The notes beneath the pieces are model-generated. The model was not told where the DNA came from. It saw only the letters and a program-made list of their open reading frames with translations, and ran no database searches. This document shows positions 1-29,214 of a stretch of DNA of 30,341 nucleotides, in pieces; positions within the stretch are counted from its first letter, which is position 1; each line of letters begins with the position of its first letter. The translations under genes and the position numbers were made by a program. This stretch comes from a virus, in IMG/VR virus record IMGVR_UViG_3300034093_002642, positions 1-30,341 of that record, one strand, 5' to 3'.

Positions 1-1354
1 CTCTGAAATCTAAGGTAACAAACCCTCTATATACAATGAAACCCATTCCTTCAGGTAATCTTTCTTGTATTTCTTCTACCGTTTCATCTATCCATAATTC
101 ATTTATTCTAAGAAGCATTTCTTTATCACGTTTAAATTCTTCTGGCACCGCTTTATCACCCAAGTGTTTTTCAAGCAATTCAAATTTATCCATACCATTA
201 GTTGCAATAAATCTACTTACTTCTTTTCCAGTCAATGAATGTAGAAAAGCCTTGATGTCTTCATCAGATAAAACCATAAGTTCAGTGTATACTGGGTTTA
301 ATTGATATCTATTTCTTTGATTAGGTTTCATATACTCATCAAACTTTCTTTTGCTTATTTGAGCATATCTTTTAAGAATTGCTGGTTTATTTTTAATAAA
401 GGCAAATCCTTCATCATCTAGTCCAATACCAAATGAAACATATAAATTTAATAAGTCATCTGGAAGTTGCATTAATTGATTATTTGTTATTGGTTTGGAA
501 ATAGTTGGATATATATCTAAATAATTTCTTTTTTCTTCATATGATAATCTTTTAAATTCCATATCAGAAATACCATTTTTAAATCTTACATGTTCTTTTC
601 TTTCTTCTTCTGTAAATGGTTTTGGTTGCAATACTTCATGTGCTGGTCCTAAGTTAGGGTTAATTGCCATAATTTCATCCCAACTCATTTGAGTATCATT
701 ATCATTTTGAGCTGAGGTAACAATATATTGTTTTGTTGTTAAATCATTTAAATTGACATTTTTTGGAACTTGAATTACAAAGAAATGGTATTTATTTTGA
801 AATTTACCACTAAATGTTGTTTTACCTAAATTCCAAAGTTTAAATTCTTCTTTTGTTGCTGGAATATCTTTAATAAAATAGAAAGCTGGTTCATAAGGTT
901 TAAATCTATATGTATAAAACATATTTGATGAATCTGACCTGGCTACACACCAACTATAAGGAAAACTACCTTTATATTTAATACATGCTCTAGGATTGTC
1001 AGCGTAAAATACTTCAATATTTGTATCTTTATAAACAGCTTCAGCTGATACATCAATATCATTGGTAGGTTTAGAAATAGCACTATATACTGGTCTTTTA
1101 CCACCAACATAATCTACCAACACTTCTAAATCATGAAAATCCTTATATGAATCAACATCATTTCTTTTATCTATTGGAACATTAATGTTGACTTCTGCGT
1201 CAAACATCTCTTTAAATTTTTTATCTCTAATATATTTAAATTTATCGATATATGATTTAACAATATCGGGGTCAAACCCTTGAGATATGAATTTTTTTGT
1301 TTGACTTTTAAAATCTTCATTAAGAAGTTCATTATATATATTGGTAAGCTTCAT
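1..1354 (-). CDS. Large SWC-motif phage protein, C-terminus outside window
   Basis: The open frame runs from the ATG at 1354 off the left edge, giving at least 451 residues. The N-terminus MKLTNIYNELLNEDFK has an LNE triplet near residue 12, the same position as in other leader-bearing proteins here. Around residue 125-140 it has ACIKYKG..PYSWCVARSD followed by an aromatic-rich YTYR stretch. A similar block (CVMYGQG.SWCIT, YNTYR, FVI, MPWDEI) is in the protein at 27007-29187, so the two look like diverged paralogues; here the matching end is MSWDEI. Proteins with this tryptophan-cysteine block occur in many environmental phages, with no function known to me. I cannot assign a role; a virion-associated protein is an inference from the leader. 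Confidence 0.8.
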   Translation of the reverse strand, partial: MKLTNIYNELLNEDFKSQTKKFISQGFDPDIVKSYIDKFKYIRDKKFKEMFDAEVNINVPIDKRNDVDSYKDFHDLEVLVDYVGGKRPVYSAISKPTNDIDVSAEAVYKDTNIEVFYADNPRACIKYKGSFPYSWCVARSDSSNMFYTYRFKPYEPAFYFIKDIPATKEEFKLWNLGKTTFSGKFQNKYHFFVIQVPKNVNLNDLTTKQYIVTSAQNDNDTQMSWDEIMAINPNLGPAHEVLQPKPFTEEERKEHVRFKNGISDMEFKRLSYEEKRNYLDIYPTISKPITNNQLMQLPDDLLNLYVSFGIGLDDEGFAFIKNKPAILKRYAQISKRKFDEYMKPNQRNRYQLNPVYTELMVLSDEDIKAFLHSLTGKEVSRFIATNGMDKFELLEKHLGDKAVPEEFKRDKEMLLRINELWIDETVEEIQERLPEGMGFIVYRGFVTLDFR

Positions 1355-1418
1355 GTTTGTGTTTTATAATAAATATCAACTATTTTTGAATATTCATTAA
1401 TAACTTTTAAAATGTTAG

Positions 1419-16163: not shown

Positions 16164-16167
16164 AATA

Positions 16168-16830: not shown

Positions 16831-16848
16831 CAATATAACATAAAACTA

Positions 16849-16872
16849 AAAAGAGAGCTATATAGCTCTCTT
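16849..16872. terminator. Bidirectional terminator between convergent genes
   Basis: AGAGAGCTATATAGCTCTCT is a palindromic hairpin with A-runs on the left and T-runs on the right. It overlaps the last codons of the 2H phosphoesterase gene and follows the LLQEDG gene by about 20 nt. Confidence 0.8.
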
Positions 16873-17247
16873 TTTTATTTCAGTTACTTCACCTGATAAT
16901 ATAAACATTCTTATATCTTGCCAATCAGTAATATCATTGCTCATTACAGGTTTACCCCCATCTGGATTAATAGCAACCGTTACGTGTGGTATTTTATTTT
17001 TGGTTTCAATATCACTTTGAACCGCAACAGCCATTGCCATATCACTAATACCAACTTTAGTTACTGCAAGAAGTTGTTCAGTACCCAAAATACTTTTATC
17101 TTTTAATTCACCCATGGTTATTGTCATATGATGTGCAATGATTTTGAAATTATCTGGTATTAAATATTTTAAATTATCTAATAATATTTTTCTAGATTCT
17201 TCATCTAATAACACACAACTATACAATACATTAGTTTCTCCTTCCAT
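16858..17247 (-). CDS. 2H phosphoesterase (RNA repair-like)
   Basis: The 129-residue protein has the paired motifs HHMTITMG (His40) and PHVTVAIN (His88) of the 2H superfamily, with a strand VLYSCVLLD at the N-terminus and SNDITDW near the end. It resembles the tRNA-ligase-type cyclic phosphodiesterase domain, which opens RNA 2',3'-cyclic phosphates. It lies 5 nt after the Pnk-like kinase gene, so the healing kinase and the CPDase-like enzyme are one operon. A role against cyclic-nucleotide defence signals is the alternative. Confidence 0.75.
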   Translation of the reverse strand: MEGETNVLYSCVLLDEESRKILLDNLKYLIPDNFKIIAHHMTITMGELKDKSILGTEQLLAVTKVGISDMAMAVAVQSDIETKNKIPHVTVAINPDGGKPVMSNDITDWQDIRMFILSGEVTEIKKRAI

Positions 17248-17252
17248 AATTT

Positions 17253-18449
17253 TTATTTATCAGTATAATCTTTTTTAAAAATCCATACATAACCACCAGC
17301 TTGTTTTCTTTTTCCATTACATACAGCATTAATATGAAAAATTTTTGTTTCGTTAAAAGCTTCAACACCAGATTTAAATTCTTTAATTTTATTACCATAC
17401 ATATCTAATTGAACTATTGGAACACTTAATTTTTCACTAACCATTGGTTTTTTTACACCTTTTCCAATTATTGATAGTTTATTTCTAGTTTCTTCAGATA
17501 CATTTTTACCAAACATTGGGTTTTTATTACCTTTTCTATCATCACCTTTACCAAACATTGGGTTTCCTATTCCACATCTATTTATTTTAGATTCTTCAGA
17601 CCATTTAGTACCTAATCTAGATTGACTAACAGAACAAATATTATAACCAAAATTTCTGTTTGTTGAATCATTTTCTAAAATATATTTCTCTTCCAATTTT
17701 AATAATTTTTCTATTTTTATATTATTAAAACTTTCAATTATTTCAAATTTGAAACTTTCTAACCCATGTTTATTGTATGATTTTTGCAAAATTGGATTTT
17801 CATGAGTACCATTTTTTAAATTATTAAAGTGTTGTTTTTTCCTTAACGATAAAGATTTACCAGTACTACCTATATACACTTTACCATTTTTTAAATTTAC
17901 TAAGTTATACACACCAACTTTATTATGATAGATATCTTTAGATGCTAAAATATTTTTTAGTGTTAACTCACCCAAATTTTTATATTTTTGAATCATTTTT
18001 ATTATCTTTTCTAATGGTACACCGTGTGAATTTCTTTTAGTTAATTCTTCTGGTGATAAATCATCAATTCCAATTTTAATAATTTTAATATTATCATCAG
18101 ATAATCCAAGTAATAACCCATTTTCAACATATTGTTTTATTTCACTTTTACTTAAATTAGTGTTATCAATAATACAAGGGGTAATACCATTTTTAATTGA
18201 ATTTATTGAATTATTAATATTAATTAAATGAGCTCTGGATAAATCAGAAAAATTCCCTGATTCAATCATTTTTTTAAAAAAATAGTTATAATCACCTAAG
18301 GATTCTATAACAGAATCGGTTGAGTGAATAACTCCTTTACCTACTATCTCTCTAGCTTTACTACTTTTACCAGAACCAGAAACACCAACCATAATGATTA
18401 ATTCTTGTTCTGGTCTAATTATTTCTATATTTAAAATATTTTTTTTCAT
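17253..18449 (-). CDS. Pnk-like polynucleotide kinase domain fused to GIY-YIG endonuclease
   Basis: The 398-residue protein is a fusion. Residues 1-165 form a P-loop kinase like the N-terminal half of T4 Pnk: VGVSGSGKSS (21-30), IIDNTNLS (93-100), and ELTKRNSHGVPLEKIIKM (135-152), matching T4 ELVKRNS...AVPIDVLRSM. Residues 178-270 are a GIY-YIG nuclease: GVYNLVNLKNGKVYIGST, RKKQHF. Two GNPMFGK/KNPMFGK NUMOD3 units and a NUMOD1-like tail (VQLDMYGNKIKEFKSGVEAF) follow. The Pnk phosphatase domain is absent and is replaced by the nuclease. It could be a homing gene that captured or truncated the kinase. A TATTTTTG box (18454-18461) lies just before the ATG. Confidence 0.85.
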   Translation of the reverse strand: MKKNILNIEIIRPEQELIIMVGVSGSGKSSKAREIVGKGVIHSTDSVIESLGDYNYFFKKMIESGNFSDLSRAHLININNSINSIKNGITPCIIDNTNLSKSEIKQYVENGLLLGLSDDNIKIIKIGIDDLSPEELTKRNSHGVPLEKIIKMIQKYKNLGELTLKNILASKDIYHNKVGVYNLVNLKNGKVYIGSTGKSLSLRKKQHFNNLKNGTHENPILQKSYNKHGLESFKFEIIESFNNIKIEKLLKLEEKYILENDSTNRNFGYNICSVSQSRLGTKWSEESKINRCGIGNPMFGKGDDRKGNKNPMFGKNVSEETRNKLSIIGKGVKKPMVSEKLSVPIVQLDMYGNKIKEFKSGVEAFNETKIFHINAVCNGKRKQAGGYVWIFKKDYTDK

Positions 18450-18486
18450 TTTGCAAAAATACTAATAATAAATGATATAAACAACT

Positions 18487-19053
18487 TTATTTAATATTAA
18501 TTATAGAAGGATTATAAACTATTATATGTTTTATATCTTCATAGTCTTTATTTACTATAATACCATCAATACCCAACGATACACAATTTCTAACAAATTC
18601 AACTGGATTATACCTATAAAAATCAATCCATACTTGGAGAATACAATCTTTTTCATTATCATTATATTCCATAGAATCTTCAATAAATGTTTGAATACCT
18701 CTTATTGGGTCTTCACCCCAATTTTGTGCCGAACCTTCCCAATCATCAGCCATCATAGCTAATTTTTTCATAAAAGGTCTTATTTTAACTTTGTTTATAG
18801 GAACCTCATCAAATAAAATATTAGGTTTTAAAATTACACTATAAACGTTTTCACCATAACGATTTGCCTCTTCTTCTGATGTTGTAAAATAAATACCAGG
18901 ACCTTCTCTATCAAATGCTTCTTGACCACCAACAAAATCATCAATAAATTTATTTATCTTGGTTGGGCTACCATGAAAGACATGATATTCTCCACCAGCA
19001 ATTGCTTCTGGTAATAATGATTCTCTAAGTTGTTGTCTAATTAATTTTTTCAT
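18487..19053 (-). CDS. ADP-ribosyltransferase-like protein with capsid-targeting-like leader
   Basis: The 188-residue protein starts MKKLIRQQLRESLLPEAIAG, a basic amphipathic leader ending in LPE, then enters an ART fold: YHVFHGSPTKINKF (His27), EGPGIYFTTSEEEANRYGE (Tyr55), VYSVILKPNILFDE, and at the end LGIDGIIVNKDY...IIVYNPSII. His and Tyr fit an H-Y-E type ART; the Glu position is less clear. Phage ARTs such as T4 Alt modify host RNA polymerase after injection. Here the leader suggests packaging into the head. It is the last gene of a three-gene cluster of similar design. Confidence 0.7.
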   Translation of the reverse strand: MKKLIRQQLRESLLPEAIAGGEYHVFHGSPTKINKFIDDFVGGQEAFDREGPGIYFTTSEEEANRYGENVYSVILKPNILFDEVPINKVKIRPFMKKLAMMADDWEGSAQNWGEDPIRGIQTFIEDSMEYNDNEKDCILQVWIDFYRYNPVEFVRNCVSLGIDGIIVNKDYEDIKHIIVYNPSIINIK

Positions 19054-19055
19054 AT

Positions 19056-19853
19056 TTAAAGTTGTTTTCTATATTGAATGAAATTTCTAAGTACCCAAAC
19101 AACTACATCATCAAATTCATCACTCTCGTAAAGACTTCTTCCACTCTTTACACTTTTAACCGCCCATTGACGTTCTTCACCTTCAGTAATAGGGATAATA
19201 CTCTTTGCTGTGTTGCCATAAAATATAACTTGTGGTTCTTCATCTCCATAATGCCATAATTCCATACCTGAAGCTCTAAAAATCACTGCTTCTTTGCCGT
19301 ATTTAAAACCACGACCATGATTGCTATGTGCATATCTTGCATATCTATCAATATCATAAGCAAAGTTATAACCACCGTATTTCTTTTCAAATTCACCCAA
19401 GTGTGTCGTCAATGCTAATTTATCTATTTCATCAACACCATATTTAAACCCTTGTCTGGCTATCCCTTCAGCATCGTCAGTAAAATGAATCAACCACTGG
19501 TTTTTAACTAATCTAGGGTTGTCAAAAAATGACCAAGCTGGTAAATCAGCATCATTTATGTTTAAATCATGGTCCATTATTTTATCATATAACCATTGAG
19601 CAAATTGATTGTATAGTTCTGGGTTTTTATCAAATAAAATATCAGTAATTTCATATGGTTCACCTTCAATGTCAGTTTCTAAACCCTCTTCATCTAAAAA
19701 CGTATCAAATTCATAAGGATATTCATGTGGTAAATAAGATTTCTTTTCTTCATCAGTCATTGAGAAATATCTTTTTAATGAAACCATTTCTTGTCCAACA
19801 AATTCAGTTAATAATGATTCTCGGAGTTGTTTTTTAATTAATTTTTTATCCAT
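19056..19853 (-). CDS. ART-fold-like protein with capsid-targeting-like leader
   Basis: From the ATG at 19853 (MDKKLIKKQLRESLLTEFVG) the protein has 265 residues and a leader nearly identical to that of the next gene, ending in LTE. A helical acidic region (30-110) follows, then a core LIHFTDDAEGIARQGFKYG (121-139), KLALTTHLG, GGYNFAYDID, and VIFRASGMELWHYGD...VIFYGNTAKSI. His-Phe-Thr, the GF..G turn and GGYNFAY recall ART-fold active sites, but the match is weaker than for its neighbour. The start overlaps the kinase-like gene by 8 nt. Ending at 19056, it lies 2 nt from the next start. Confidence 0.55.
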   Translation of the reverse strand: MDKKLIKKQLRESLLTEFVGQEMVSLKRYFSMTDEEKKSYLPHEYPYEFDTFLDEEGLETDIEGEPYEITDILFDKNPELYNQFAQWLYDKIMDHDLNINDADLPAWSFFDNPRLVKNQWLIHFTDDAEGIARQGFKYGVDEIDKLALTTHLGEFEKKYGGYNFAYDIDRYARYAHSNHGRGFKYGKEAVIFRASGMELWHYGDEEPQVIFYGNTAKSIIPITEGEERQWAVKSVKSGRSLYESDEFDDVVVWVLRNFIQYRKQL

Positions 19854-20868
19854 AATATTCATCCCACACATCTGACGTTATTCCATAATCAATCATTACA
19901 ATAGTATCTTCACCATTTCTTTTTACTAATCCATATGAATTAAGTTTACATAAATCACCAACAGGTACCTCATATCCACCTAAAAAAGAAAAAATATCTT
20001 TAATAAATTCATTTTCCCACATAGCATCAACTGTTTCTTTATCTATATTGTATTTTCTAATATATCTAGCTTTTTGTGGGTTATTATTCGAATAGTAATT
20101 ACTAATGGCCCCACAATAATCATCAAAAGTAAAACCAATAACTTGTTGAAAAATTTGTGGTGTTACTTTTCTAGCCAATTCCATTTCAATCCATAAATCA
20201 TTGTCATCATAAGCAAATACTCTAGCAGTAATATCTTTAATGTCATGATAATTGGAATTTGTTGCTTCAACATCGTTTTGAGCAAGACCTTTTTTATTTT
20301 TAGCAATTTTTAATACTTTGGTATCATCAACCATATAAACAATTCTGGAGGACCCAGAAGAAATTCTCTTTAGTCTTTCTTGACAATATTGAATCCGCTT
20401 GTTATAGCTGGTTAGTTTTGAGAATTCTTTTAAATCAAAGTTTGTTGGATAGTCTTCTTCCAAATATGATTCAATTAGCTTATGAGTTAAGCTTTCGGAT
20501 AGTCTTTTTTTAATAAACGTCTTAGTTTCATCTAAACTATCTAACATAAATTTACAATTTGGAAATAATATTATCTCACCAGTACTACCATTTCGCATAG
20601 TAATAATAGCATCATAACCAGCATTCATTAATTTTTCAGTTAAACGTTTACCTTTGGCTTTGTATTTTTTTGCTAATTCGTATTTGTAGGAAATAAGTGT
20701 GTCATCATCAACATCGATAATAAGTGGATTTCTAATATCAGCTTGACCCTCAACCCATGGCTTATCAAGTTTTCGGTCAAAATCTTTTTCAAGGACATAA
20801 GTTCCTGTTGGTTCAACATCTTGACCAAACATCGACCCATAATTTTGGGCTTTCTCCATATTTTTCAT
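19846..20868 (-). CDS. Truncated ART-like segment fused to protein-kinase-like domain
   Basis: I use the ATG at 20868 (MKNMEKAQNYGSMFG); those at 20883 or 20859 are possible. Residues 7-107 look like the second half of an ART-type domain (AQNYGSMFG, IRNPLIIDVDD, LMNAGYDAIITMRNG, EIILFPN); the H-containing N-terminal half is missing. At 115-133 a leader-like TKTFIKKRLSESLTHKLIES recurs inside the protein. Residues 165-335 look kinase-like: GSSRIVYMVDDTKVLKIAKNKKG with a Lys as in VAIK, an IEMELA hinge, and TIVMIDYGIT as a DFG-like motif. Such proteins are frequent in large phages. The gene begins just downstream of tRNA-Ser. Confidence 0.6.
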   Translation of the reverse strand: MKNMEKAQNYGSMFGQDVEPTGTYVLEKDFDRKLDKPWVEGQADIRNPLIIDVDDDTLISYKYELAKKYKAKGKRLTEKLMNAGYDAIITMRNGSTGEIILFPNCKFMLDSLDETKTFIKKRLSESLTHKLIESYLEEDYPTNFDLKEFSKLTSYNKRIQYCQERLKRISSGSSRIVYMVDDTKVLKIAKNKKGLAQNDVEATNSNYHDIKDITARVFAYDDNDLWIEMELARKVTPQIFQQVIGFTFDDYCGAISNYYSNNNPQKARYIRKYNIDKETVDAMWENEFIKDIFSFLGGYEVPVGDLCKLNSYGLVKRNGEDTIVMIDYGITSDVWDEYYG

Positions 20869-20924
20869 TATCGTTAATAACATAATAGTGTTTATTGATA
20901 AATATGTAGATTTATATAAAAGTG

Positions 20925-21011
20925 CGGAGAGCAAGGGAATCGAACCCTCACCGCTATTACACGGAACACCTTAGCAGGGTGCCACCACAAACCAATATTA
21001 GTCTACTCTCC
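20925..21011 (-). tRNA. tRNA-Ser (anticodon GCU)
   Basis: The acceptor GGAGAGT pairs with GCTCTCC. The anticodon loop CTGCTAA lies in GCACC/GGTGT, and a long variable arm (TCCGTGTAATAGCGG) and discriminator G fit Ser. CCA is not encoded. Confidence 0.93.
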
Positions 21012-21018
21012 AATTTAG

Positions 21019-21091
21019 TACCCCCACAGGGATTCGAACCCCGATTATACATCTTAGAAGGATGTTGCATTTCCATTTATGCTATGAAGGC
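21019..21091 (-). tRNA. tRNA-Arg (anticodon UCU)
   Basis: The acceptor GCCTTCA pairs with TGGGGGT through several G-U pairs. The anticodon stem ACATC/GATGT holds CTTCTAA, and the T-arm has TTCGAAT. Discriminator A is followed by CTA, not CCA. It reads AGA, the preferred Arg codon in these AT-rich genes. Confidence 0.9.
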
Positions 21092-21097
21092 AAATAA

Positions 21098-21718
21098 TTA
21101 TGCTCTACCTATTACCCAGTTTTGTTCAAGCCAAATTTCAAGGACTTCTTTTTTTATTTTTTTGTTCTCACCATCTTTGGTTATCCAACAAGTACCATAT
21201 TGTGAATTTGCTTCACCAATACCTGTATTTTTTCTTTGTTCAGACATTATTTTTTTAGTTTCTTCTGAGTGATTTTTTCCAATCCAATCATAAGATTTTT
21301 TATCTAAATGTAATTGTTTCATATTGTTAGAAACTATCTTTCTATGTTTCTCACTAAATTCTAAATCTTGTTCTAATTTATTTTTAAGAGCGTCACCACC
21401 ACGTTTTGAAATTTCATAACTAATAAACCCACCACAACCACCTTCTTTAAGGTTCATACATTTACCGTCAGAAATCAATTCTTTAGTAACAATCTCGGAT
21501 TCTCTAAAAACCAACGCTTCTTTAGAATCACAAAATTCTAGAATTTCTTTAGTATGTTTTTCCACACCATATTTTCTTATACTACGTTTTAGTATTCTTC
21601 CGCTACCCATGTATCCATCTTCTAATGTATATGCACTATGCATACCAACATACCATTTTCCTGTTACATTACATGTTGTTTTATATATGTAATGTATATT
21701 TCTTACTTTTCTTGCCAT
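21098..21718 (-). CDS. GIY-YIG homing endonuclease in tRNA cluster B
   Basis: The 206-residue protein has GIY-YIG-type motifs at 8-30 (HYIYKTTC, GKWYVGMHS), a MGSGRILKRSIRKYG loop, and the Glu-bearing FRESEIV. A long C-terminal part has NUMOD3-like HSEETKKIMSEQRKNTG and a WI..DGENKKI helix-turn-helix tail. This is similar to T4 Seg-type homing enzymes. It sits between tRNA-Arg(UCU) and tRNA-Arg(ACG), ending 6 nt from the former. It has its own promoter and a start-codon inverted repeat (21718-21766). Confidence 0.88.
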   Translation of the reverse strand: MARKVRNIHYIYKTTCNVTGKWYVGMHSAYTLEDGYMGSGRILKRSIRKYGVEKHTKEILEFCDSKEALVFRESEIVTKELISDGKCMNLKEGGCGGFISYEISKRGGDALKNKLEQDLEFSEKHRKIVSNNMKQLHLDKKSYDWIGKNHSEETKKIMSEQRKNTGIGEANSQYGTCWITKDGENKKIKKEVLEIWLEQNWVIGRA

Positions 21719-21766
21719 ATGTTATATCTTTTATAATAAATATAACATAAAGGACAAAAAAGTCAA
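21718..21766 (-). promoter_or_regulatory. Promoter and inverted repeat of the cluster-B GIY-YIG gene
   Basis: The minus strand has TTGAC (21762-21766), 17 nt, TATATTTA (21737-21744). Perfect 10-bp arms TATGTTATAT (21718-21727) and ATATAACATA (21740-21749) flank the region between -7 box and ATG. Confidence 0.65.
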
Positions 21767-21767
21767 G

Positions 21768-21840
21768 TAGCCCTACAGGGATTCGAACCCCAATTCTAGC
21801 ATTCGTAGTGCTAAGTCCTATCCAGTTGAACGATAGAGCC
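21768..21840 (-). tRNA. tRNA-Arg (anticodon ACG)
   Basis: The acceptor GGCTCTA pairs with TAGGGCT, and the stem TAGCA/TGCTA holds the loop CTACGAA. A34 would be deaminated to inosine by host TadA to read CGN codons. CCA is not encoded. The GIY-YIG promoter begins 2 nt after its 3' end. Confidence 0.93.
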
Positions 21841-21845
21841 ATTTG

Positions 21846-21923
21846 TAGCGAGTATGGGAGCCGAGCCCATTTATTCATCTTTATGAGGGATGAACGTTTT
21901 CCAATAACCCTCGCCATTACGCT
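21846..21923 (-). tRNA. Degenerate tRNA-like sequence with CAU anticodon
   Basis: A cloverleaf can be drawn with anticodon loop CTCATAA in CATCC/AGATG and a T-stem ATGGG/CCCAT. However, the T-loop reads CTCGGCT instead of TTCNANT, the D-loop is long, and the acceptor (AGCGTAA/ACTCGCT) has three mismatches. It overlaps tRNA-Asn by 2 nt. It may be a decayed tRNA-Met or Ile2, or an unusual functional one. Confidence 0.5.
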
Positions 21924-21995
21924 CCTCAGCCAGGCTTTGAACCTGGAACTTCCACTTTAACAGAGTGGCACTCTAACCAATTGAGTTACTGAGGA
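21922..21995 (-). tRNA. tRNA-Asn (anticodon GUU)
   Basis: The acceptor TCCTCAG pairs perfectly with CTGAGGA. The anticodon stem CCACT/AGTGG holds the loop CTGTTAA, and the T-loop is TTCAAAG. Discriminator G is standard for Asn. CCA is not encoded. Confidence 0.93.
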
Positions 21996-22046
21996 ATTTA
22001 TTACCAGCCAAATCTATACTTTAAATACAACATTTGGCTGATATTG

Positions 22047-22120
22047 TTGCCTCGCTGGGGCTCGAACCCAAGACCTACGCATTATGAGTGCGGTGCTCTA
22101 ACCATCTGAGCTACAAGGCA
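22047..22120 (-). tRNA. tRNA-Met (anticodon CAU)
   Basis: The acceptor TGCCTTG pairs with CGAGGCA, the D-arm AGCTCAGATGGTTAGAGC is regular, and the loop is CTCATAA. The fully paired first acceptor base and normal D-arm favour elongator Met over initiator; Ile2 with lysidine is the alternative. CCA is not encoded. Confidence 0.9.
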
Positions 22121-22128
22121 ATATTTAG

Positions 22129-22200
22129 TAGGCATGTTGGGACTCGAACCCAAAATACAAAAGTATCAGTCTTGCGTGATAACCATTTCACCACACACCT
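22129..22200 (-). tRNA. tRNA-Ile (anticodon GAU)
   Basis: The acceptor AGGTGTG pairs with CATGCCT, the anticodon loop CTGATAC lies in CAAGA/TTTTG, and the T-arm has TTCGAGT. Discriminator A, no encoded CCA. Confidence 0.88.
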
Positions 22201-22204
22201 ATTT

Positions 22205-22223
22205 TGGAAGTCTATGACTTCCA
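22205..22223 (-). promoter_or_regulatory. Perfect hairpin before tRNA-Ile
   Basis: TGGAAGTC / GACTTCCA with a 3-nt loop spans the last codons of the 63-residue ORF and ends 5 nt before tRNA-Ile. It has no T-run, so it is more likely an RNA-processing mark between mRNA and tRNA than a terminator. Confidence 0.4.
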
Positions 22224-22403
22224 TTGTGTTTTTCGGTTATACTTCCAAGTTTTATGTTCTCTATATTTGTGAGAGAACTGACCTTTTCTGTAATAAACAC
22301 CCTCATCCCAATAAGGTGGGTATTCAAATTTTAACCAAATAATTCTGTAATCTTTAGAACAAGTTGCTTTTTTCAACTTCATTCTGTTTGTGTTTACACT
22401 CAT
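22212..22403 (-). CDS. Small basic hypothetical protein within tRNA cluster
   Basis: The 63-residue ORF (MSVNTNRMKLKKATCSKDYR...) is rich in Lys, Arg, Trp and Tyr (IIWLKFEYPPYWDEG, HKTWKYNRKTQWKS), which suits a nucleic-acid-binding role. It fills a gap between tRNA-Ile and tRNA-His, on the coding strand. No family is recognised, but the amino-acid mix is not that of a random AT-rich frame. Confidence 0.5.
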   Translation of the reverse strand: MSVNTNRMKLKKATCSKDYRIIWLKFEYPPYWDEGVYYRKGQFSHKYREHKTWKYNRKTQWKS

Positions 22404-22474
22404 AACTTTTCAGTCTATTGTTTAGTAGACCTCAAAGCATATCAAATTCTTTTTTCATTTTTTTATTATATTTG

Positions 22475-22546
22475 GGTATAACCACGGTATCGAACCGAGT
22501 TCTTCAGATTCACAGTCTGACGCTTCACCTTAAAGCTTGAAATACC
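22475..22546 (-). tRNA. tRNA-His (anticodon GUG)
   Basis: The loop CTGTGAA lies in TCAGA/TCTGA and the D-arm GCTT/AAGC is good. An extra 5' G (position -1) faces C73, the mark of tRNA-His. The acceptor has two T-T mismatches and the T-stem one. CCA is not encoded. Confidence 0.85.
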
Positions 22547-22573
22547 ATATTTAGTTTATCTTTACCTCATTTC

Positions 22574-22661
22574 TGCGGTGATAATCGCCTGTAACTTTAA
22601 AAGTTATAAACTATGCGGTGATTATCTGGCTATTCTCCGCATTTTTGCGGTGATTAGCTTT
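22574..22661. repeat. Three TGCGGTGAT repeats between tRNA genes
   Basis: TGCGGTGATAATC (22574), TGCGGTGATTATC (22614) and TGCGGTGATTAGC (22646) recur within 85 nt, spaced 40 and 32 nt. Between them are the hairpins CCGCA/TGCGG (around 22637-22650) and TAACTTT/AAAGTTA. No gene or tRNA is seen in 22547-22662. Confidence 0.55.
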
Positions 22662-22662
22662 G

Positions 22663-22733
22663 CACGTCCAGAGGGATTCGAACCCCCATCAACGCTTTTG
22701 GAGAGCGTGATGCTACCGTTGCACCATAGACGT
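22663..22733 (-). tRNA. tRNA-Trp (anticodon CCA)
   Basis: The acceptor ACGTCTA pairs with TGGACGT, the anticodon stem ACGCT/AGCGT holds CTCCAAA, and discriminator G is typical of Trp. CCA is not encoded at the 3' end (GCAAAG follows). Confidence 0.93.
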
Positions 22734-22739
22734 ATTTTG

Positions 22740-22831
22740 AAGAAGGAGTGGGACTCGAACCCACACATCCGTTTTACGGGACCCTCCGCTTTCAAGGCGG
22801 CTGCCGCTAGACCAACTCGGCTTACCCTTCC
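22740..22831 (-). tRNA. tRNA-Ser (anticodon UGA)
   Basis: The acceptor GGAAGGG pairs with TCCTTCT, the loop CTTGAAA lies in GCCGC/GCGGA, and a long variable arm (GGGTCCCGTAAAACGGATGT) confirms class II. Three bases instead of two lie between acceptor and D-stem, and the discriminator appears to be T rather than the usual G. It is first in cluster B. CCA is not encoded. Confidence 0.88.
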
Positions 22832-22834
22832 ATT

Positions 22835-23014
22835 TTATTCTTTTATATCAACAAAGATAATGGTAAACCCACCTTCTTTTTGAAATCTTAATTCACCATG
22901 ATAACCACTTGCATCAGCTATCTTTCTATACTTGTCAACTATGAGGTCAAAATCTTTCATTAAGTTAACAGTTTTTTCTTTTCCTAAATTTCTCACTAGA
23001 TTTCCCATATTCAT
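22835..23014 (-). CDS. Small hypothetical protein, 59 residues
   Basis: ATG at 23014, reading MNMGNLVRNLGKEKTVNLMKDFD..., with a helix, KYRKIADASGYHGELRFQKE and a final strand GGFTIIFVDIKE. Balanced composition and good codon use support a real gene. Its stop is 3 nt before tRNA-Ser(UGA), so mRNA and tRNA cluster B are probably one transcript. The start lies 6 nt after the terminator T-run of the peptide gene upstream. The function is unknown. Confidence 0.65.
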   Translation of the reverse strand: MNMGNLVRNLGKEKTVNLMKDFDLIVDKYRKIADASGYHGELRFQKEGGFTIIFVDIKE

Positions 23015-23020
23015 TAAAAT

Positions 23021-23056
23021 AAAAAAACCTGACTAGTTTTGATGTAGTCAGGTTTT
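23021..23056 (-). terminator. Strong intrinsic terminator
   Basis: AAAACCTGACTA / TAGTCAGGTTTT forms an 11-12 bp stem with a 9-nt loop, followed on the minus strand by a run of seven T. It ends the transcript of the 33-residue peptide gene. Confidence 0.85.
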
Positions 23057-23078
23057 AATTGTTATATTTTGTTTTGAG

Positions 23079-23180
23079 TTATACTTCCGTACCACCTTGA
23101 CAATTACACATACCTGCTACTGGGCGACTATTACGTCTCCAATTGCTAATCGATATCATATGTATGTTAATTGTTGTCAT
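23079..23180 (-). CDS. Tiny Cys-containing peptide, 33 residues
   Basis: The ATG at 23180 opens MTTINIHMISISNWRRNSRP, continuing VAGMCNCQGGTEV. The mix of a polar N-terminal half and a CNCQGG end resembles a small modified peptide or a tiny regulator, but no family is recognised. It has the same gene plan as the 24-residue peptide at 3198: an ideal promoter (23207-23237), a short leader, and a strong terminator 20 nt after the stop. This privately controlled unit lies next to tRNA cluster B as the other lies next to cluster A. Confidence 0.5.
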   Translation of the reverse strand: MTTINIHMISISNWRRNSRPVAGMCNCQGGTEV

Positions 23181-23206
23181 TTTTTTGTTTGTTTTTAATT
23201 TCTTTG

Positions 23207-23237
23207 CAAATATACTAACTTATTTAATACAAGTCAA
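23207..23237 (-). promoter_or_regulatory. Promoter of the 33-residue peptide gene
   Basis: The minus strand has TTGAC, 18 nt, TATATTTG, followed by CAAAG. The match to the Bacteroidetes consensus is near perfect. The AT-rich stretch 23238-23325 upstream shows nothing else. Confidence 0.75.
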
Positions 23238-23325
23238 GTTTTTTGCTATTTTTTTTTTAATCTTTTTGTGTTTATTATTAAATATGTACAAAGATACAAA
23301 AAGTTTAAATACTATGCAAGTTTTT

Positions 23326-23943
23326 TTAATTTAATTGTAAATCTTTTGTTGTAAAATATTGTTTTAAATCAATACCTTTATCTTTAGCGTCATTTAAACT
23401 AATGGTTTCTGGTGTTTTACCATCTTGCCATATACTTTCGGGAGTGGCTAATAATATATCATCATAATTTATTATTGTAGCATTTATTTGAGGTATTTTT
23501 CCCATTTTAAAAGCACCTAATCTATGATTTCCATCTATAACAGCATATTTACCTGAAAGTAATGGATGTTCGATTGCTACTACTGGTTTAAAAGATTTCC
23601 AACCACCATTTTTAGCGTTTTGAATCATATTATCCACATATTGTTTTACCTCGGTTCCATCAGGTAATTTACCTGATGTGAAGTATTTATAATCTTTATT
23701 AGGTTCGTTTCCTAATGCATCTGCCACATTTATAATTTTATTTTGTCCAATTATAGGTGAAGGGTCTACACCTTTAAAATTAGGATAAATAATAAATTTT
23801 TTAGAAATATCTTTTGGTTTTATCGTTTCTTCATCAACACGTTTGATAGAATTAAATGTTTTAGCAAAGTTTTCAACAATAACTTTTTCTCTTTGATTGA
23901 TGATTTCTTTTTTATCAACTTCGTTTAATATAATTTTTTTCAT
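23326..23943 (-). CDS. ParB/sulfiredoxin-fold-like protein with short leader
   Basis: The 205-residue protein begins MKKIILNEVDKKEII, with LNE at residues 6-8 as in other leader proteins here. At about 130-165 it has PVVAIEHPLLSGKYAVIDGNHRLGAFKMGKIPQINATII, where DGNHRLGAFK is the signature box of the ParB/Srx fold (D-G-x-H-R). That fold hydrolyses nucleotides or acts as a nuclease, kinase or ADP-transfer enzyme in different families. Surrounding parts are unassigned. SIKRVDEE near residue 32 recurs as SIKRIDEN in the gene at 24055. Confidence 0.6.
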   Translation of the reverse strand: MKKIILNEVDKKEIINQREKVIVENFAKTFNSIKRVDEETIKPKDISKKFIIYPNFKGVDPSPIIGQNKIINVADALGNEPNKDYKYFTSGKLPDGTEVKQYVDNMIQNAKNGGWKSFKPVVAIEHPLLSGKYAVIDGNHRLGAFKMGKIPQINATIINYDDILLATPESIWQDGKTPETISLNDAKDKGIDLKQYFTTKDLQLN

Positions 23944-23955
23944 AATACTATTTTA

Positions 23956-24057
23956 ATATAAATATTCTATAATATTAAAAAAATTCAGCTGTTATATATA
24001 CACCACCACTTTCATTAATCAATTCTCTGCGTTTTAACCAATCTTTAATATTATTTA
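23956..24057. repeat. 102-bp direct repeat, copy 1
   Basis: This copy matches 24517-24618 at 101 of 102 positions, offset 561 bp. It carries the last 27-28 codons of the C39/GNAT gene plus about 20 bp of downstream sequence. Confidence 0.92.
23975..24057 (-). pseudogene. C-terminal fragment of the C39/GNAT gene
   Basis: The frame reads LNNIKDWLKRRELINESGG then VYITAEFF and a stop, the same end as the intact gene at 24536-25414. Nothing upstream continues it, so it is a duplicated remnant. The last codon (TAA) of the 24055 gene lies in this copy in another frame. Confidence 0.85.
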
Positions 24058-24501
24058 ATTAACTGTGTTATAAATTATTCGATTCATTTGGTCATTAAAT
24101 ACTGGATTTTTATCTTTTCCAATTATTTTATTCGCTGATTTATCAAATAGTATTTTATGATGTGGTAAATAAAGATATCTATTACCGTTATAATAAATAA
24201 AGAAAAAATCTTTACGTTTAATACTTTCTTGATATTGTTCTTCATCAGTAAAATGTGGTATTTGAGTATTAAACGATGTATTATCAGTATTAATACTCAA
24301 ATATTTAAGGTTTGCTGGAACATAAGAATAATCATCGCCAGTTAAATTATATAAAATATTTACCTCGTTATGATTAGTACCAATATAAGGTGGTTTATCG
24401 TTTTCATCGATACGTTTTATTGAATCTTTATTTTCGACATATCTTTGTTCAGTTAATAAATTAACTTTTTGAATGTTTAATTTTTTTTCTATCCTTCTCA
24501 T
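24055..24501 (-). CDS. Leader-bearing hypothetical protein
   Basis: The 148-residue protein starts MRRIEKKLNIQKVNLLTEQR, with an LTE triplet at residues 15-17, then SIKRIDENDKPPYIGTN. The rest is strand-rich with many aromatics (DDYSYVPANLKYLSINTD, DFFFIYYNGNRYLYLPHHKI). The fold is not recognised. The gene is bracketed by the 102-bp repeats, so it came with, or was displaced by, the duplication. Leader similarity to the 23326 protein suggests the two are processed alike. Confidence 0.65.
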   Translation of the reverse strand: MRRIEKKLNIQKVNLLTEQRYVENKDSIKRIDENDKPPYIGTNHNEVNILYNLTGDDYSYVPANLKYLSINTDNTSFNTQIPHFTDEEQYQESIKRKDFFFIYYNGNRYLYLPHHKILFDKSANKIIGKDKNPVFNDQMNRIIYNTVN

Positions 24502-24516
24502 TTATATTAAGTTTAT

Positions 24517-24618
24517 ATATAAATATTCTATAATATTAAAAAAATTCAGCTGTTATATATACACCACCACTTTCATTAATCAATTCTCTGCGTTTTAACC
24601 AATCTTTTATATTATTTA
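24517..24618. repeat. 102-bp direct repeat, copy 2
   Basis: The functional copy, forming the 3' end of the C39/GNAT gene and the leader region of the 24055 gene. The single mismatch is at 24608. Confidence 0.92.
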
Positions 24619-25414
24619 GACCTTTTGCTTGTTGTCCCCAAATATAATCAACACCAAGAGTTTTAGGGTAGTCTTTAAGTCTGTTTCCCCAACCTCTACC
24701 TCTTATGGATTCATCAATTGCTAAAAGAACACCTTCAACACCTTTTAAATCATGAAAATCTAAATGACGTAATTGACTATTACCTATCAAATAAGCACCA
24801 CGTATATTATTATCCCTATCAATTATCATTGCTGATTTTTCTAGGTCAGTTTGATTTTCAACAACTATATTGAAATAACCTTCGGTAATAACGTGTGTAA
24901 AGTAAGGGAACGACCATTCCATAATTTCATTAAGTCTTTCTTTTGGTATACCTTGTTTTATTACAAGCATTTCAATTTCATAAAATTCATAGTGTCTTCC
25001 AATCCAAATAGTACTTAATTCTTCTTCACTATATGTCATTTCACCTTGCCATGGGTCATTTGCATAATATTTATTATCATCATACCCACTTATAATAATC
25101 CAATGTGGAATACCATGAGTAAAAGTTCTAAGCATTGGTAAATTACCATTATCTAGAACTGATTTTAAATGTTGGAATGGTTCTTGCGATTTTACATGAT
25201 GGATATAATTCATACCCAATGCATTCATACCTTTTTCAAGTCTTTCTGGTGGAGTACCAGTTATATTATCAGTACCACAAAAATCACAAATTTCCATGAT
25301 TGAGTAGTGCTGTTTTTTAGGTGTTTGTGGAAGTGCTTCGTAGGCCATCATTATACATGTTGGACCGCAGCTAATTCCATTAGGTTGTTGGTAATGTTTA
25401 ATAATCTGTTTCAT
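24536..25414 (-). CDS. C39-like cysteine peptidase fused to GNAT-type acetyltransferase
   Basis: The ATG at 25414 (MKQIIKHYQQPNG) is chosen; the longer frame runs into the acidic gene upstream. Of 292 residues, 1-130 match a C39-type papain-like fold: GISCGPTCIMMAYEAL with Cys16, HWIIISGYDD with His104, and YYANDPW with Asn119/Asp120. Residues about 165-290 look like GNAT: SAMIIDRDNNIRGAYLIG, VEGVLLAIDESIRGRGWGNRL (acetyl-CoA loop R-G-x-G-x-G/N) and DYIWGQQAKGLNNIKDWLKRR. The pairing of a protease-like and an acetyl-transfer domain could process and modify one substrate. It overlaps the upstream gene by 17 nt. Confidence 0.75.
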   Translation of the reverse strand: MKQIIKHYQQPNGISCGPTCIMMAYEALPQTPKKQHYSIMEICDFCGTDNITGTPPERLEKGMNALGMNYIHHVKSQEPFQHLKSVLDNGNLPMLRTFTHGIPHWIIISGYDDNKYYANDPWQGEMTYSEEELSTIWIGRHYEFYEIEMLVIKQGIPKERLNEIMEWSFPYFTHVITEGYFNIVVENQTDLEKSAMIIDRDNNIRGAYLIGNSQLRHLDFHDLKGVEGVLLAIDESIRGRGWGNRLKDYPKTLGVDYIWGQQAKGLNNIKDWLKRRELINESGGVYITAEFF

Positions 25415-25772
25415 AATTAATATCGTCATAGTCGTCTTCATCTTCATCATCGAAATCTGAATCTTCTTCACCTATAACTTGTTCTAAGAATGCTTCACCT
25501 ATAAAGGTTCCAAATTCATCGTTAAACAATCGTTTTAATGTTTTTGCTTCATCTAAGGATATTTCTTTAAATTCAATCCTAGATAATAAATCTTCACCAT
25601 CTGAAAATTCTAATTGAAATTGGTTATCTTCACCAAATTCATATACGAAATCCCATGTAATGCTTAATGCTAATTCTTCGAAGTTTTCAACTTCTCTTTC
25701 ATTCATGACAATAAAACCACTAATTTCGATTTCATTTACCACGCTGCTAAATTTTGCCAAATATTTTGCCAT
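25398..25772 (-). CDS. Acidic hypothetical protein
   Basis: The 124-residue protein is mixed alpha/beta (MAKYLAKFSSVVNEIEISGF, ELALSITWDFVYEFGEDN) and ends in a strongly acidic tail (EEDSDFDDEDEDDYDD). The tail could bind basic proteins or mimic DNA. Its ATG lies in one arm of a perfect 16-bp inverted repeat (25763-25811). The family is not recognised. Confidence 0.7.
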   Translation of the reverse strand: MAKYLAKFSSVVNEIEISGFIVMNEREVENFEELALSITWDFVYEFGEDNQFQLEFSDGEDLLSRIEFKEISLDEAKTLKRLFNDEFGTFIGEAFLEQVIGEEDSDFDDEDEDDYDDINYETDY

Positions 25773-25820
25773 TGTTATTAATTTTTATTATAAATATAAC
25801 AATGGCAAAATAAAAATCAA
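25763..25820 (-). promoter_or_regulatory. Promoter with 16-bp perfect inverted repeat at start codon
   Basis: ATTTTGCCATTGTTAT (25763-25778) and ATAACAATGGCAAAAT (25796-25811) are perfect arms 17 nt apart. On the minus strand one arm is ATAACA plus the first codons ATGGCAAAAT. The other lies in the spacer of TTGAT-17-TATATTTA (25791-25820). Both the -7 box and the probable start site lie between the arms. Confidence 0.75.
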
Positions 25821-25825
25821 TATTA

Positions 25826-26959
25826 TTATAATAATTTTTGGAAATTATCAGTTTCCATTTTCTCTATGGCTTTACCTAATTCAGGACCAGGTTTTATATT
25901 GAATTTACTCATCGCCTCTGGTCCAGTTACAGTTAACCTAAAATTTTCAAAAGCATCTAATAACTGTGATGATATACCCTCGTTAGTACCAAAGTTTCTA
26001 ATTTGGTCATTATTAACACCAGAAGTTTGTTGTATCTTTTTTAATAAGTAAGCTGTATTAACATCTAACTTTAATAACGATATTAAAAATACAATAGCTT
26101 TAATTTCATCTGCTGAGTATTTCAATTCATTTAATTTCTTTCTCAATACCTCAATACTATTATCTTTTAATAATCTAGCCAATAATACTACGTAATCATC
26201 TCCTTTGTAATCTAGGTTTCTTCTAAAGACTCTTCTATCAACATTTAAATTAGGAAAAACCCAATCAAACAATTTGTATTTATCTAACATCAATAAATAA
26301 CCATCTGTTGATTTGGCTGATATGATACCTTTGATAAATTCATCTCTAATTCTTTCACCAGAAATTCCAACAAGACTTGCATCTTTTTGCAATGCAGCAT
26401 CGACATTAGGGTCTAAATCACTTCCAAATCTACCAGCAAATCTAATTGCTCTTAAGATTCTAAGCCTATCCTCACCAAATCTATCTTCAGCAGCACCTAC
26501 AGTCCTCACTATACCTCTTTTAAGGTCATTTACACCACCAACTAAGTCAACTATCTCTTTGGTATCAATATCAAAAAATAATGCATTACAGGTCAAATCT
26601 CTACGTAAGATATCTGTTTCGATATTAGTAAATACAACCGATTCAGGTCTTCTACCTGAACCGACATCTTGACGCATAGTTGCTATCTCAAATTCGTGAG
26701 TATTGGTAATTACATTGATTACTCCAAATGCTTTTCCCGTTACTAAAATGTTAATAACAAACTCCTGATATTCCAACAATGCAATAACCTTTTCTGGTAC
26801 TGCATTGGTAACCAAATCAAAATCCTTGGGTATCGTTCCCAACACAGCATCACGAACAGCCCCACCAATCAAAAATAATTCAAACCCTTCAATTCGAAAA
26901 ATTTTGTGTATCAATTTTACCTCATTAGGTAAATCTATATTTTGTTTTATTTTTATCAT
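25826..26959 (-). CDS. cca: CCA-adding enzyme / class II tRNA nucleotidyltransferase
   Basis: The 377-residue protein has the class II motifs in order: GGAVRD (32-37), KDFDLVTNA with the metal-binding Asp46/Asp48, RRDLTCNALFFD, and EDRLRILRAIRFAGRFG (motif D with the nucleotide-selecting EDxxR). A helical body and tail follow. It adds CCA to tRNA 3' ends. None of the phage tRNAs in this window encodes CCA, so this enzyme can mature them and can rebuild CCA ends nicked by host defences. The promoter is of the TTTGGTA class (26963-26993), the ATG 4 nt past TATCTTTG. Confidence 0.92.
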   Translation of the reverse strand: MIKIKQNIDLPNEVKLIHKIFRIEGFELFLIGGAVRDAVLGTIPKDFDLVTNAVPEKVIALLEYQEFVINILVTGKAFGVINVITNTHEFEIATMRQDVGSGRRPESVVFTNIETDILRRDLTCNALFFDIDTKEIVDLVGGVNDLKRGIVRTVGAAEDRFGEDRLRILRAIRFAGRFGSDLDPNVDAALQKDASLVGISGERIRDEFIKGIISAKSTDGYLLMLDKYKLFDWVFPNLNVDRRVFRRNLDYKGDDYVVLLARLLKDNSIEVLRKKLNELKYSADEIKAIVFLISLLKLDVNTAYLLKKIQQTSGVNNDQIRNFGTNEGISSQLLDAFENFRLTVTGPEAMSKFNIKPGPELGKAIEKMETDNFQKLL

Positions 26960-26962
26960 GTT

Positions 26963-26993
26963 GCAAAGATATAATTATTTTTTAAACTACCAA
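26963..26993 (-). promoter_or_regulatory. TTTGGTA-type promoter of the CCA gene
   Basis: The minus strand has TTTGGTAGTTTAAAAAA, then TATCTTTG, then CAAC and the ATG. The transcript leader is nearly absent. Confidence 0.65.
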
Positions 26994-27006
26994 ATATTAT
27001 CTAGAA

Positions 27007-29187
27007 TTATATTCTAGATAATATAAACTCTTTGTCATCTGGCATATATTTGTCAATTATTGGTTCCATATATGGGTATAATTCTTTCTTGTAAAGAATA
27101 TTTGTCATATCATATTTATCCAATTGTTTAAGTATCGAATCTGGTAAGTATTGGATTACCTTAGGAGCAGATTTAATCAAATCAATCATATAGTTCATAC
27201 TAATCTTATTATAAAATTGACGCACTAGAATTGGTTTATCACGTATCATACTGTATATTCTATATTCATCCATTTTATCAATACGTTCATCAGGTATATA
27301 TTTTAAGGCTTTTGGATTTTTTACTATTATGTCTTTTAAATCATAATCAGTAATATTATTAATCCTATCACCTAATTGTTTAAACAGTGTCGGTTGATTT
27401 GATAAAACCTTTTCAAGGTCATAAGAACTATCAACAAACCTCAACAATTCTGGTTTATAAACAAAAGCCTTGGCTTTAGTATCATATAACAAAGTATATC
27501 TAAGTGCATCAAATTCTTCTTTAGTATTTATAACAATATATTTATCTCTTATTAACAAAGGAAGCAAATTACCATATTTTAATCTATCTAAAAGGTCTAA
27601 TTTTTTTTCTTCTGATACATTATCTAATATTGCTTTATAACTACTAGAGTCTTTTTCTAATATATTAGATAATTGCCATGTACCTATTTCATCAAAACCT
27701 TCTGTTTTAACTAAATACTTAGCTAATTCAGGGTAATCGTAAATTAACAACGATACTTGATGTTTCGACAATTTATTTAAATTTTCTTTAACTTCAGGTG
27801 ATTTAATGATACTATTTTCAGCATAAATAGCACAAAATAAGTCATTACCATCATTTAAATCATATCTGTCTATATTTATCTTAACTGATGGTAACAATTT
27901 TTTTATATTCTGTAATTCATCATAGTCCAGTTTTGTTTGATTAATACCACTTCTCCACGCATCAGAAACACCAGTGTTATTACCATTTACCCTAAGCATC
28001 AAATATTTTTTAATACTGTCTTCAGACATAAATTTATAAAAAGAATCGCTAAGTAGAACATTGCTATCAATTTTTAATTTTATAATACGATTTATTTGAG
28101 TTGGTGATAGAACTTCTTCATATAATTTGCTATCTATATACCTGTTAACAAAATAACCAACTTCAATAAGACTATCCATGGTTTCTTTTCGCAGGCTTTT
28201 TAATTGTTCTAAATTAAAAGCCATTTGGTTTGTAGCTAAATCTCTAATAAAATCAGCTGGTGTGACTTGAGAACCATTTATTATAAGTCCTTTTATGCTT
28301 CTATCAACAAGGTCTTGCAAATCATCACCAACAAAATTAGCCTTAACCTTATCCAATAATTCAGCATATCTATTCTCATCGTCAGTAATTTCTCTATATG
28401 GAAAATATCTTTCTAGACCTTGTAAGTTAGGTAATTGTTGTTCTATTTCATCCCATGGCATTGCATCGCTTGAACTACCGCTTCTTTCACCAGTATTGCT
28501 TCTATCAGCAATTGCGTATCCTCTATAACCATAATTCATTATAACAAATTTATGTTCATTACCTTGTATATTTTTTTGTAAAACAAAATAAGGTGTTGCC
28601 TTATAGCTAAGTCTATATGTGTTGTAATAGTTCAATTCAGGTTTGGTTATACACCATGATTCACCTTGTCCATACATAACACATTTAGCCTTGGTATTGG
28701 TATCCAAAATAATAACATTATCATTTTCAAATACAATATCTTCATCTTTAGGGTTATATATTGTATTTCCTTGTTTTATTTCACTATCTTTAATCCAACG
28801 ATTATTATTAACCAAATCAACCAATCCACTTTCAATTTTTTTCATTGAGAATGGCATTGCTGATTGACCTAATGATTTAATGTTGGTAATATAAGCATCC
28901 AAGTATTTTTTAGCCAATTCTTTGTTTTCTGGGAATGAGGAAGTTTTAATTAAATTATTTAATGTTGATTCGTACCATTTATTAAAAACAACATCAAATT
29001 GTTCTTTGGTTTTATATTGTTGAATATCACCAATTTCATTTCTAAACAAACTAGCAATAGCTAATTTATTTATCATATTTTCAGATGTATCATTAAATTT
29101 TTTAGTTAATATATCTAGTGTTTTTTTACCATAAATCTCATTTATAGCTAATCCTTCTCTAAGTAATTGTTTAATTATATTCTTCAT
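27007..29187 (-). CDS. Large SWC-motif protein with capsid-targeting-like leader
   Basis: The 726-residue protein starts MKNIIKQLLREGLAINEIYG, a basic leader with INE at residues 15-17. Near residue 165 it has AKCVMYGQGESWCITKPELN, YNTYR, FVLQKN, KFVIMNYG and MPWDEI, the block shared with the protein at 1-1354. The C-terminal 450 residues are mostly helical with a degenerate repeat built around P-x-L and YLP/YIP turns (DYPELAKYL, NPKALKYIPDERI, APKVIQYLPDSIL), likely a helical-repeat scaffold. The function is unknown; large packaged or virion-associated protein is inferred. Confidence 0.75.
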   Translation of the reverse strand: MKNIIKQLLREGLAINEIYGKKTLDILTKKFNDTSENMINKLAIASLFRNEIGDIQQYKTKEQFDVVFNKWYESTLNNLIKTSSFPENKELAKKYLDAYITNIKSLGQSAMPFSMKKIESGLVDLVNNNRWIKDSEIKQGNTIYNPKDEDIVFENDNVIILDTNTKAKCVMYGQGESWCITKPELNYYNTYRLSYKATPYFVLQKNIQGNEHKFVIMNYGYRGYAIADRSNTGERSGSSSDAMPWDEIEQQLPNLQGLERYFPYREITDDENRYAELLDKVKANFVGDDLQDLVDRSIKGLIINGSQVTPADFIRDLATNQMAFNLEQLKSLRKETMDSLIEVGYFVNRYIDSKLYEEVLSPTQINRIIKLKIDSNVLLSDSFYKFMSEDSIKKYLMLRVNGNNTGVSDAWRSGINQTKLDYDELQNIKKLLPSVKINIDRYDLNDGNDLFCAIYAENSIIKSPEVKENLNKLSKHQVSLLIYDYPELAKYLVKTEGFDEIGTWQLSNILEKDSSSYKAILDNVSEEKKLDLLDRLKYGNLLPLLIRDKYIVINTKEEFDALRYTLLYDTKAKAFVYKPELLRFVDSSYDLEKVLSNQPTLFKQLGDRINNITDYDLKDIIVKNPKALKYIPDERIDKMDEYRIYSMIRDKPILVRQFYNKISMNYMIDLIKSAPKVIQYLPDSILKQLDKYDMTNILYKKELYPYMEPIIDKYMPDDKEFILSRI

Positions 29188-29214
29188 ACCTATAAATATC
29201 TATTAAAATAAAAA

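Follow-up and report, generated by a model that had tools for sequence, protein, structure and literature searches.

The DNA analyzed here, called the window, is the whole 30,341-nucleotide (nt) stretch of IMG/VR record IMGVR_UViG_3300034093_002642, an AT-rich fragment (29.6% GC) of an uncultured virus that carries 13 tRNA genes and nearly all of its larger genes on the minus strand. Our subject is a short N-terminal leader found on several of its proteins. The initial annotation had listed seven proteins with leaders ending in L/I-x-E and had read these as capsid-targeting sequences (CTSs) of the phage T4 kind, cut by a prohead protease, on host-takeover proteins. In T4, such a leader stands at the N-terminus of internal proteins and ends in L/I-x-E for cutting by gp21 (PMC9026906 section 2.6). 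All seven listed strings were located in the window. A second IMG/VR contig (G004, 62.8 kb) is 100% identical to window positions 3259-30341, and the two together represent about 66 kb of one phage. Distant relatives were found by searching with the protein encoded at 27007 (genes are named by their lower coordinate) and with the leader itself. They include three contigs of 306-369 kb, and the window phage is therefore placed in a large-phage lineage. The relatives are AT-rich as well, and a host among the Bacteroidota is a guess. All large relative contigs are metagenomic and may be incomplete.

Three genes of the window begin with the full leader. The gene at 18487..19053 (minus strand) encodes a 188-aa ART-PolyVal protein that matches Pfam PF18760 (E 1.2e-8; 36.3 bits against a curated cut-off of 31.2) and has full-length homologs in GAP32/CBB-type jumbo phages. 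Its leader, MKKLIRQQLRE/SLLPE (leader score 25.7), was assigned from sequence and consensus to 16 codons (19006..19053, minus strand) and has two L-x-E sites, LRE and LPE. The adjacent gene (19056..19853, minus strand) encodes a 265-aa protein with the leader MDKKLIKKQLRE/SLLTE, which scores 31.7 and occupies 17 codons by the leader profile (19803..19853, minus strand). It probably starts at position 19853 rather than 19871, and its ortholog in G006, at 79% identity, bears a leader of the same kind. Neither Pfam nor PHROG gave a match for this protein, and solved structures gave no homolog. The claim that two of the proteins are ADP-ribosyltransferase-like (ART-like) thus holds by PF18760 for 18487, whereas for 19056 the likeness was judged by eye only. 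The third gene (27007..29187, minus strand) encodes a 726-aa protein whose leader, MKNIIKQLLRE/GLAINE (score 29.8), occupies 17 codons by the profile (29137..29187, minus strand). Its body is common to G001-G003 and G006; a search of phage records returned no match for it or for the leader protein that neighbors the capsid gene in relatives. Predicted structures for the 19056 protein and the N-terminus of 27007 (predicted local distance difference test scores of 49 and 54) were too poor and were not used.

A fourth leader is internal. The in-frame open reading frame (ORF) at 19846..20934 (minus strand) joins an ART-like C-terminal piece, recognized by eye, to a kinase-like protein that bears a leader. 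The internal leader, TKTFIKKRLSE/SLTHKLIE (20470..20526, minus strand; profile score 10.5), has its nearest ATG start candidate at 20547. In G006, the second half exists as a free-standing ortholog (213046; 69% identity) that begins MKDFIKQKLSENLVHE and lies directly after the 19056 ortholog, the two halves being separate genes there. Because this ortholog is free-standing and leader-initiated, the site that the initial annotation took for a domain junction is where a second gene, fused in frame, begins. The window protein matches phrog_4301, a family without assigned function (E 1e-13); neither it nor the G006 ortholog gave a Pfam match, and the second half is kinase-like by eye. A comparable arrangement is seen in G001 (47405), where an internal VRVKNMLRENFVTE marks the join to a domain encoded in G003 and G006 as a leader protein in its own right. 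Internal leaders of this sort would allow joined genes to yield two trimmed proteins.

The remaining three listed proteins fared less well. A relative of the N-terminal part of the 27007 protein (2..1354, minus strand; identified by alignment) carries a different leader, MKLTNIYNELLNE, which scores -1.4 and makes a weaker case; its [LI]LNE ending is kept in a 60%-identical homolog (MKLTNIYNELLNE/DFKSQ versus MKISHIFQEILNE/DFKSQ). The genes with KIILNE (23326..23943, minus strand) and VNLLTE (24055..24501, minus strand) have no leader above chance (scores -13.8 and -9.8). A homolog search with 23326 yielded no leader-bearing relative, no relative of 24055 was found outside the window phage, and both leaders were rejected. 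Their L/I-x-E strings are not evidence, because the bare motif is common near N-termini: it lies within the first 25 residues of 445 of 1493 related-phage proteins (30%), and at N-termini it is enriched only 1.35-fold. We accordingly discarded bare L/I-x-E as evidence for a leader.

The distinctive form of the leader is MKxxIKKLLRE-x-L-[LI]-x-E. Among 343 proteins, [LIVM]LRE is 18-fold and [IVL][IVRK][KRNQ]x[IL]L[RK]E 19-fold enriched at N-termini. Profile matches scoring at least 12 fall in the first 30 residues rather than elsewhere at ratios of 9:1 in G005, 6:1 in G015, 12:3 in G006 and 3:0 in the window phage, even though the regions beyond residue 30 offer about five times more positions. 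Contigs above 300 kb have 6-12 strong N-terminal matches each. A scan of IMG/VR DNA for M-K-x-[I/F/L]-I-K-x-L-L-[R/K..]-E recovered at least 80 readable leader loci; among the matches listed, 83 of 89 readable ones start an ORF 50 aa or more in length, and 80 of these 83 score 20 or more. When the same pattern was applied to prokaryote genomes (257 Gb), 87 stretches were found, of which none of the 28 that start an ORF scores as a leader, and no convincing bacterial case was seen; the profile was trained on viral matches, which bears on the contrast between 80/83 and 0/28. Positions left free by the search pattern are conserved as well, namely K/Q at 7, R at 10, L at 13 and E at 16. An [LI]xE at exactly positions 14-16, two residues past LRE, occurs in 24 of 91 non-redundant leaders, with 1.2 expected (p 4e-24). 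The leaders of 18487 and 19056, which read QLRE, lie outside the search pattern and are therefore independent cases. A limited literature search found no description of an IKKLLRE leader.

The bodies behind the leader are diverse. One hundred listed leader proteins fall into 41 unrelated clusters, and Pfam searches with 86 of the listed proteins returned ART-PolyVal (6), NUDIX (5), GNAT (4) and one match each to GP88, a kinase domain and a CCA-adding enzyme; also common among the bodies is a small HExxH protein. The leader can be present or absent on the same body. A PNK-like enzyme has it in G005 and G006 and lacks it in the window phage and G015, and the CCA-adding enzyme has it in G006 and lacks it in the window phage and G015; for both enzymes, homology begins just past the leader. 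In the window, the PNK-like plus cyclic-phosphodiesterase-like protein, a single gene in G005 and G006, is split (16858-18449, minus strand): its PNK portion is continuous with a GIY-YIG homing endonuclease that has NUMOD3, and the remainder forms an ORF of its own. ArdC-like proteins were dropped as tagged cargo, the leader being inconsistent among orthologs; those of G003 (15913-17427) and G004 (17668-20253) resemble, by eye, an ArdC-type antirestriction N-terminal domain joined to an HExxH peptidase, and some have leader-like starts.

The relatives carry a head module of T4 type. In G001 and G003, genes for terminase, portal, S77 protease (phrog_207, PF03420), an acidic scaffold-like protein and the major capsid protein follow the T4 order, and this gene set is also kept in G005, G006 and G015. 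Among the 31 leader-bearing contigs listed, Peptidase_S77 was detected in 14, including all three of 306-369 kb, which have one copy each. The initial annotation had named the lack of a gp21-like protease as a finding that would speak against packaging; this objection is not borne out among close relatives (G001, G003), which encode a gp21-type enzyme. A leader gene adjoins the capsid gene in G001, G003, G005 and G006. The capsid proteins of relatives share ENQAS(S/T/N)LLTE/(S/A)T, for which T4 gp23 has the counterpart GSFLTE/A, and this LLTE is a candidate cut site resembling RESLLTE of the 19056 leader. Separately, the window contains a 188-aa ORF (7942-8508, minus strand) with a 47-aa stretch 72% identical to the major capsid protein of the lineage, and small capsid-fragment ORFs are also found in G005 (16062-16463) and G006 (226364-226822). 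With several phages retaining it, such a free-standing piece of capsid protein could act as a decoy or a regulator.

Leader genes also share an upstream element with head genes. The promoter-like motif ATATTTAT precedes 20 of 34 leader genes and 172 of 1459 others (p 2e-10), as well as gp17-, gp18-, gp21- and gp25-type genes. Just upstream of genes in G005 it occurs 74 times, with 3.7 expected; on the coding strand, in the 40 nt before gene starts, ATATTTAT(A) reaches about 15-25 times expectation in G005, G006, G015 and the window phage, and it is apparently the main promoter element of the lineage. In the window, it lies directly upstream of 27007 (29192..29199, minus strand), where it follows a GC-rich inverted repeat and T run that resemble a terminator, and also upstream of 2-1354 (1369..1376, minus strand), 23326 (23958-23965) and 24055 (24519-24526). 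The last two copies fall in near-identical segments (23944-24013 and 24502-24571) that comprise the 24536 gene end and the motif, a local duplication.

The central result is a leader swap between lineages. In G041, a 110-kb contig with a divergent S77 protease, 19056 has a homolog (38% identity) with the N-terminus MKNNQRKIPNFSEFLNE. This homolog starts KIPNFSEFLNE, which is T4-like (T4: TYQEFIAE), and local similarity to 19056 begins only after it. The same T4-like leader is common to about ten other G041 proteins, and four genes that carry it directly adjoin the S77 gene. The pattern [FY]x[EQ..][FY][LIV]xE is found at 13 G041 N-termini and at 6 internal sites in nine times more sequence, a 17.5-fold enrichment, and is at background in G005, G006 and G015. 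As a positive control, it picks the T4 MKTYQEFIAE proteins at 65416 and 65834, which are internal-protein genes as judged by the leader; the T4 count of 3, including gp61.1, is too small for significance alone. In the uncultured 462-kb phage LR756500, which has an S77 match, 23 N-termini fit the pattern (MKYIKEYEEFILE and variants). In unbiased motif discovery, these T4-like families ranked first among the N-terminal motifs of G041 and LR756500, and in G005 the LRE leader took first and fifth place. The GAP32/CBB orthologs of the 18487 ART carry yet another leader, MKKLMEDISAIME/G. A cyanophage B23 zincin that starts MNYKQFLRE was considered as a second swap; it is suggestive, but B23 has no clear leader family.

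Several observations were made alongside this comparison. T4 gp61.1 (NC_000866 18966-19130) starts MKTFKEFIKE/D, close to the T4 CTS, and is possibly a further packaged T4 protein. The LR756500.1 family, MKYIKEYEEFI(L/N)E, which recurs throughout that record on about 22 proteins (13446, 180972 and 313382 among them), is very like the T4 CTS and marks a predicted large packaged protein set. In CBB (KU574722), MLPF(P/S)RxxEYGN is common to the N-termini of eleven proteins; this leader family of another kind is, as MLPFPRLxEYGN, the strongest N-terminal family of that phage. The window also encodes a PARP-type polymerase homolog (9497-10789, minus strand) with 41% identity to a copy in LR756500 and 33% to those of Cellulophaga phages phi17:2 and phi4:1.

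These data make it probable that the IKKLLRE leader is a lineage-specific CTS, cut by the S77 protease, that loads host-takeover and counter-defense enzymes into the head. The short, basic, probably helical leader would dock unrelated cargo proteins onto the prohead core, and the gp21-type protease would then cut behind the LRE glutamate and, in leaders that have one, behind the second L/I-x-E. Once trimmed, the cargo (ARTs, GNATs, kinase-like proteins, and NUDIX, HExxH and tRNA-repair enzymes) would stay in the head beside the DNA, enter the next host with it at the start of infection and act on host or defense proteins. We infer each of these steps, from docking and cutting to virion presence, injection and cargo roles. 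The T4-style reading proposed initially withstood each computational test applied and is supported by the S77 protease of relatives, the leader swap and the promoter motif of head genes, but only in part, because 23326 and 24055 lack a leader, 2-1354 has a different one, and 18487 is the sole profile-matched ART. A broader scheme, in which S77-encoding large phages each use a lineage-specific N-terminal head tag (IKKLLRE here, TFxEFIxE in G041, MKYIKEYEEFIxE in LR756500) and cargo genes that cross lineages adopt the local tag, could equally well prove right or wrong.

Several points weigh against packaging. The IKKLLRE leader does not resemble the T4 CTS MKTYQEFIAE in sequence, and part of its consensus (M1, K2, I5, K6, L8, L9 and E11) was set by the search pattern. 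The S77 count given above was taken among leader-bearing contigs only, and the protease gene was not found in the window phage's own fragments, whose ~66 kb are part of the genome only. The motif ATATTTAT also precedes a gp41-type helicase gene and hence is not purely late; we rejected it as a strictly late promoter and regard it as a major phage promoter, not a proven late one. No cultured phage was found that combines the IKKLLRE leader with virion proteomics. The 55 proteins detected in CBB virions (PMC5259590 Table 4) do not include CBB_455, which is the ortholog of 18487 in that phage; this absence says little because CBB has no IKKLLRE-type leader family, and the CBB data were set aside as a direct test.

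The leader could instead be a helix that docks proteins to a target other than the capsid, such as a membrane, the replication compartment or the host polymerase, with L-x-E incidental to an amphipathic K/L/E-rich sequence. The leader is indeed basic, amphipathic and, by low-confidence prediction, helical, and the CCA-adding and PNK-like enzymes could act late in the cell without being packaged. This explanation is improbable given that orthologous cargo in the S77-encoding G041 has exchanged the leader for a T4-CTS-like one, that the second L/I-x-E keeps a fixed spacing, and that leader genes adjoin the capsid gene and share the promoter motif of the head module.

Two other explanations appear considerably less probable still. 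Were the leader a functionless part of a mobile 5′ cassette, made up of promoter and start region and spread by recombination, the frequent company of the promoter-like motif and the near-identical regions upstream of 23326 and 24055 would be expected. However, the peptide is kept while its codons vary (six Leu codons are used at L8), the conservation extends to K7, R10, L13 and E16, 14 of 34 leader genes lack the motif, and leaders occur inside gene fusions (19846 and G001 47405). The tagged proteins might also belong to the head itself, as minor structural or core components, instead of being injected as effectors, as the conserved leader protein beside the capsid gene of several relatives and the additional role of T4 IPIII in head assembly (PMC9026906) could suggest, but the cargo is mostly enzyme-like (ART, NUDIX, GNAT, CCA enzyme), variable between relatives and dispersible.

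As a predicted CTS, the IKKLLRE leader resembles those of T4 IPI-IPIII in being an N-terminal segment of about 10-19 residues that ends in L/I-x-E and recurs on unrelated bodies (PMC9026906). It differs in sequence (IKKLLRE versus TYQEFIAE), in its more numerous and varied cargo, in the second L/I-x-E after the first and in its occurrence at internal fusion junctions. T4 Alt, a packaged ADP-ribosyltransferase, likewise pairs ART-type cargo with a short, cleavable-looking leader, whereas 18487 belongs to the ART-PolyVal family, is much smaller and is known from sequence alone. The giant phages phiKZ and SPN3US package and eject many proteins whose propeptides are cut after Glu by a gp21-related protease, as is predicted here; unlike theirs, the propeptides here form one shared tag family, and the portal, capsid and terminase genes are T4-type. 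For ART-PolyVal, zincin and other enzymatic domains of polyvalent proteins, injection together with the phage DNA has been proposed (Iyer et al. 2017, PMC5512222); here the domains lie mostly on separate small proteins, each with its own leader and occasionally fused, rather than in long multidomain chains. The tag and most of its cargo appear to be new, while the idea itself is known from T4.

The head cargo of large phages is known mostly from virion proteomics on a few cultured phages, and a recognizable tag would turn its identification into a sequence search. Such a tag predicts which of the several hundred unknown proteins of a phage are packaged, gives exact cut sites that can be checked by mass spectrometry and points to early-acting effectors against host defenses. 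A leader that acts in trans could also be used to load proteins into phage heads, a purpose that the T4 CTS already serves. If the broader scheme of lineage-specific tags is correct, the entire injected protein set of a phage could be read from sequence, including enzymes of tRNA repair and maturation that would arrive at time zero.

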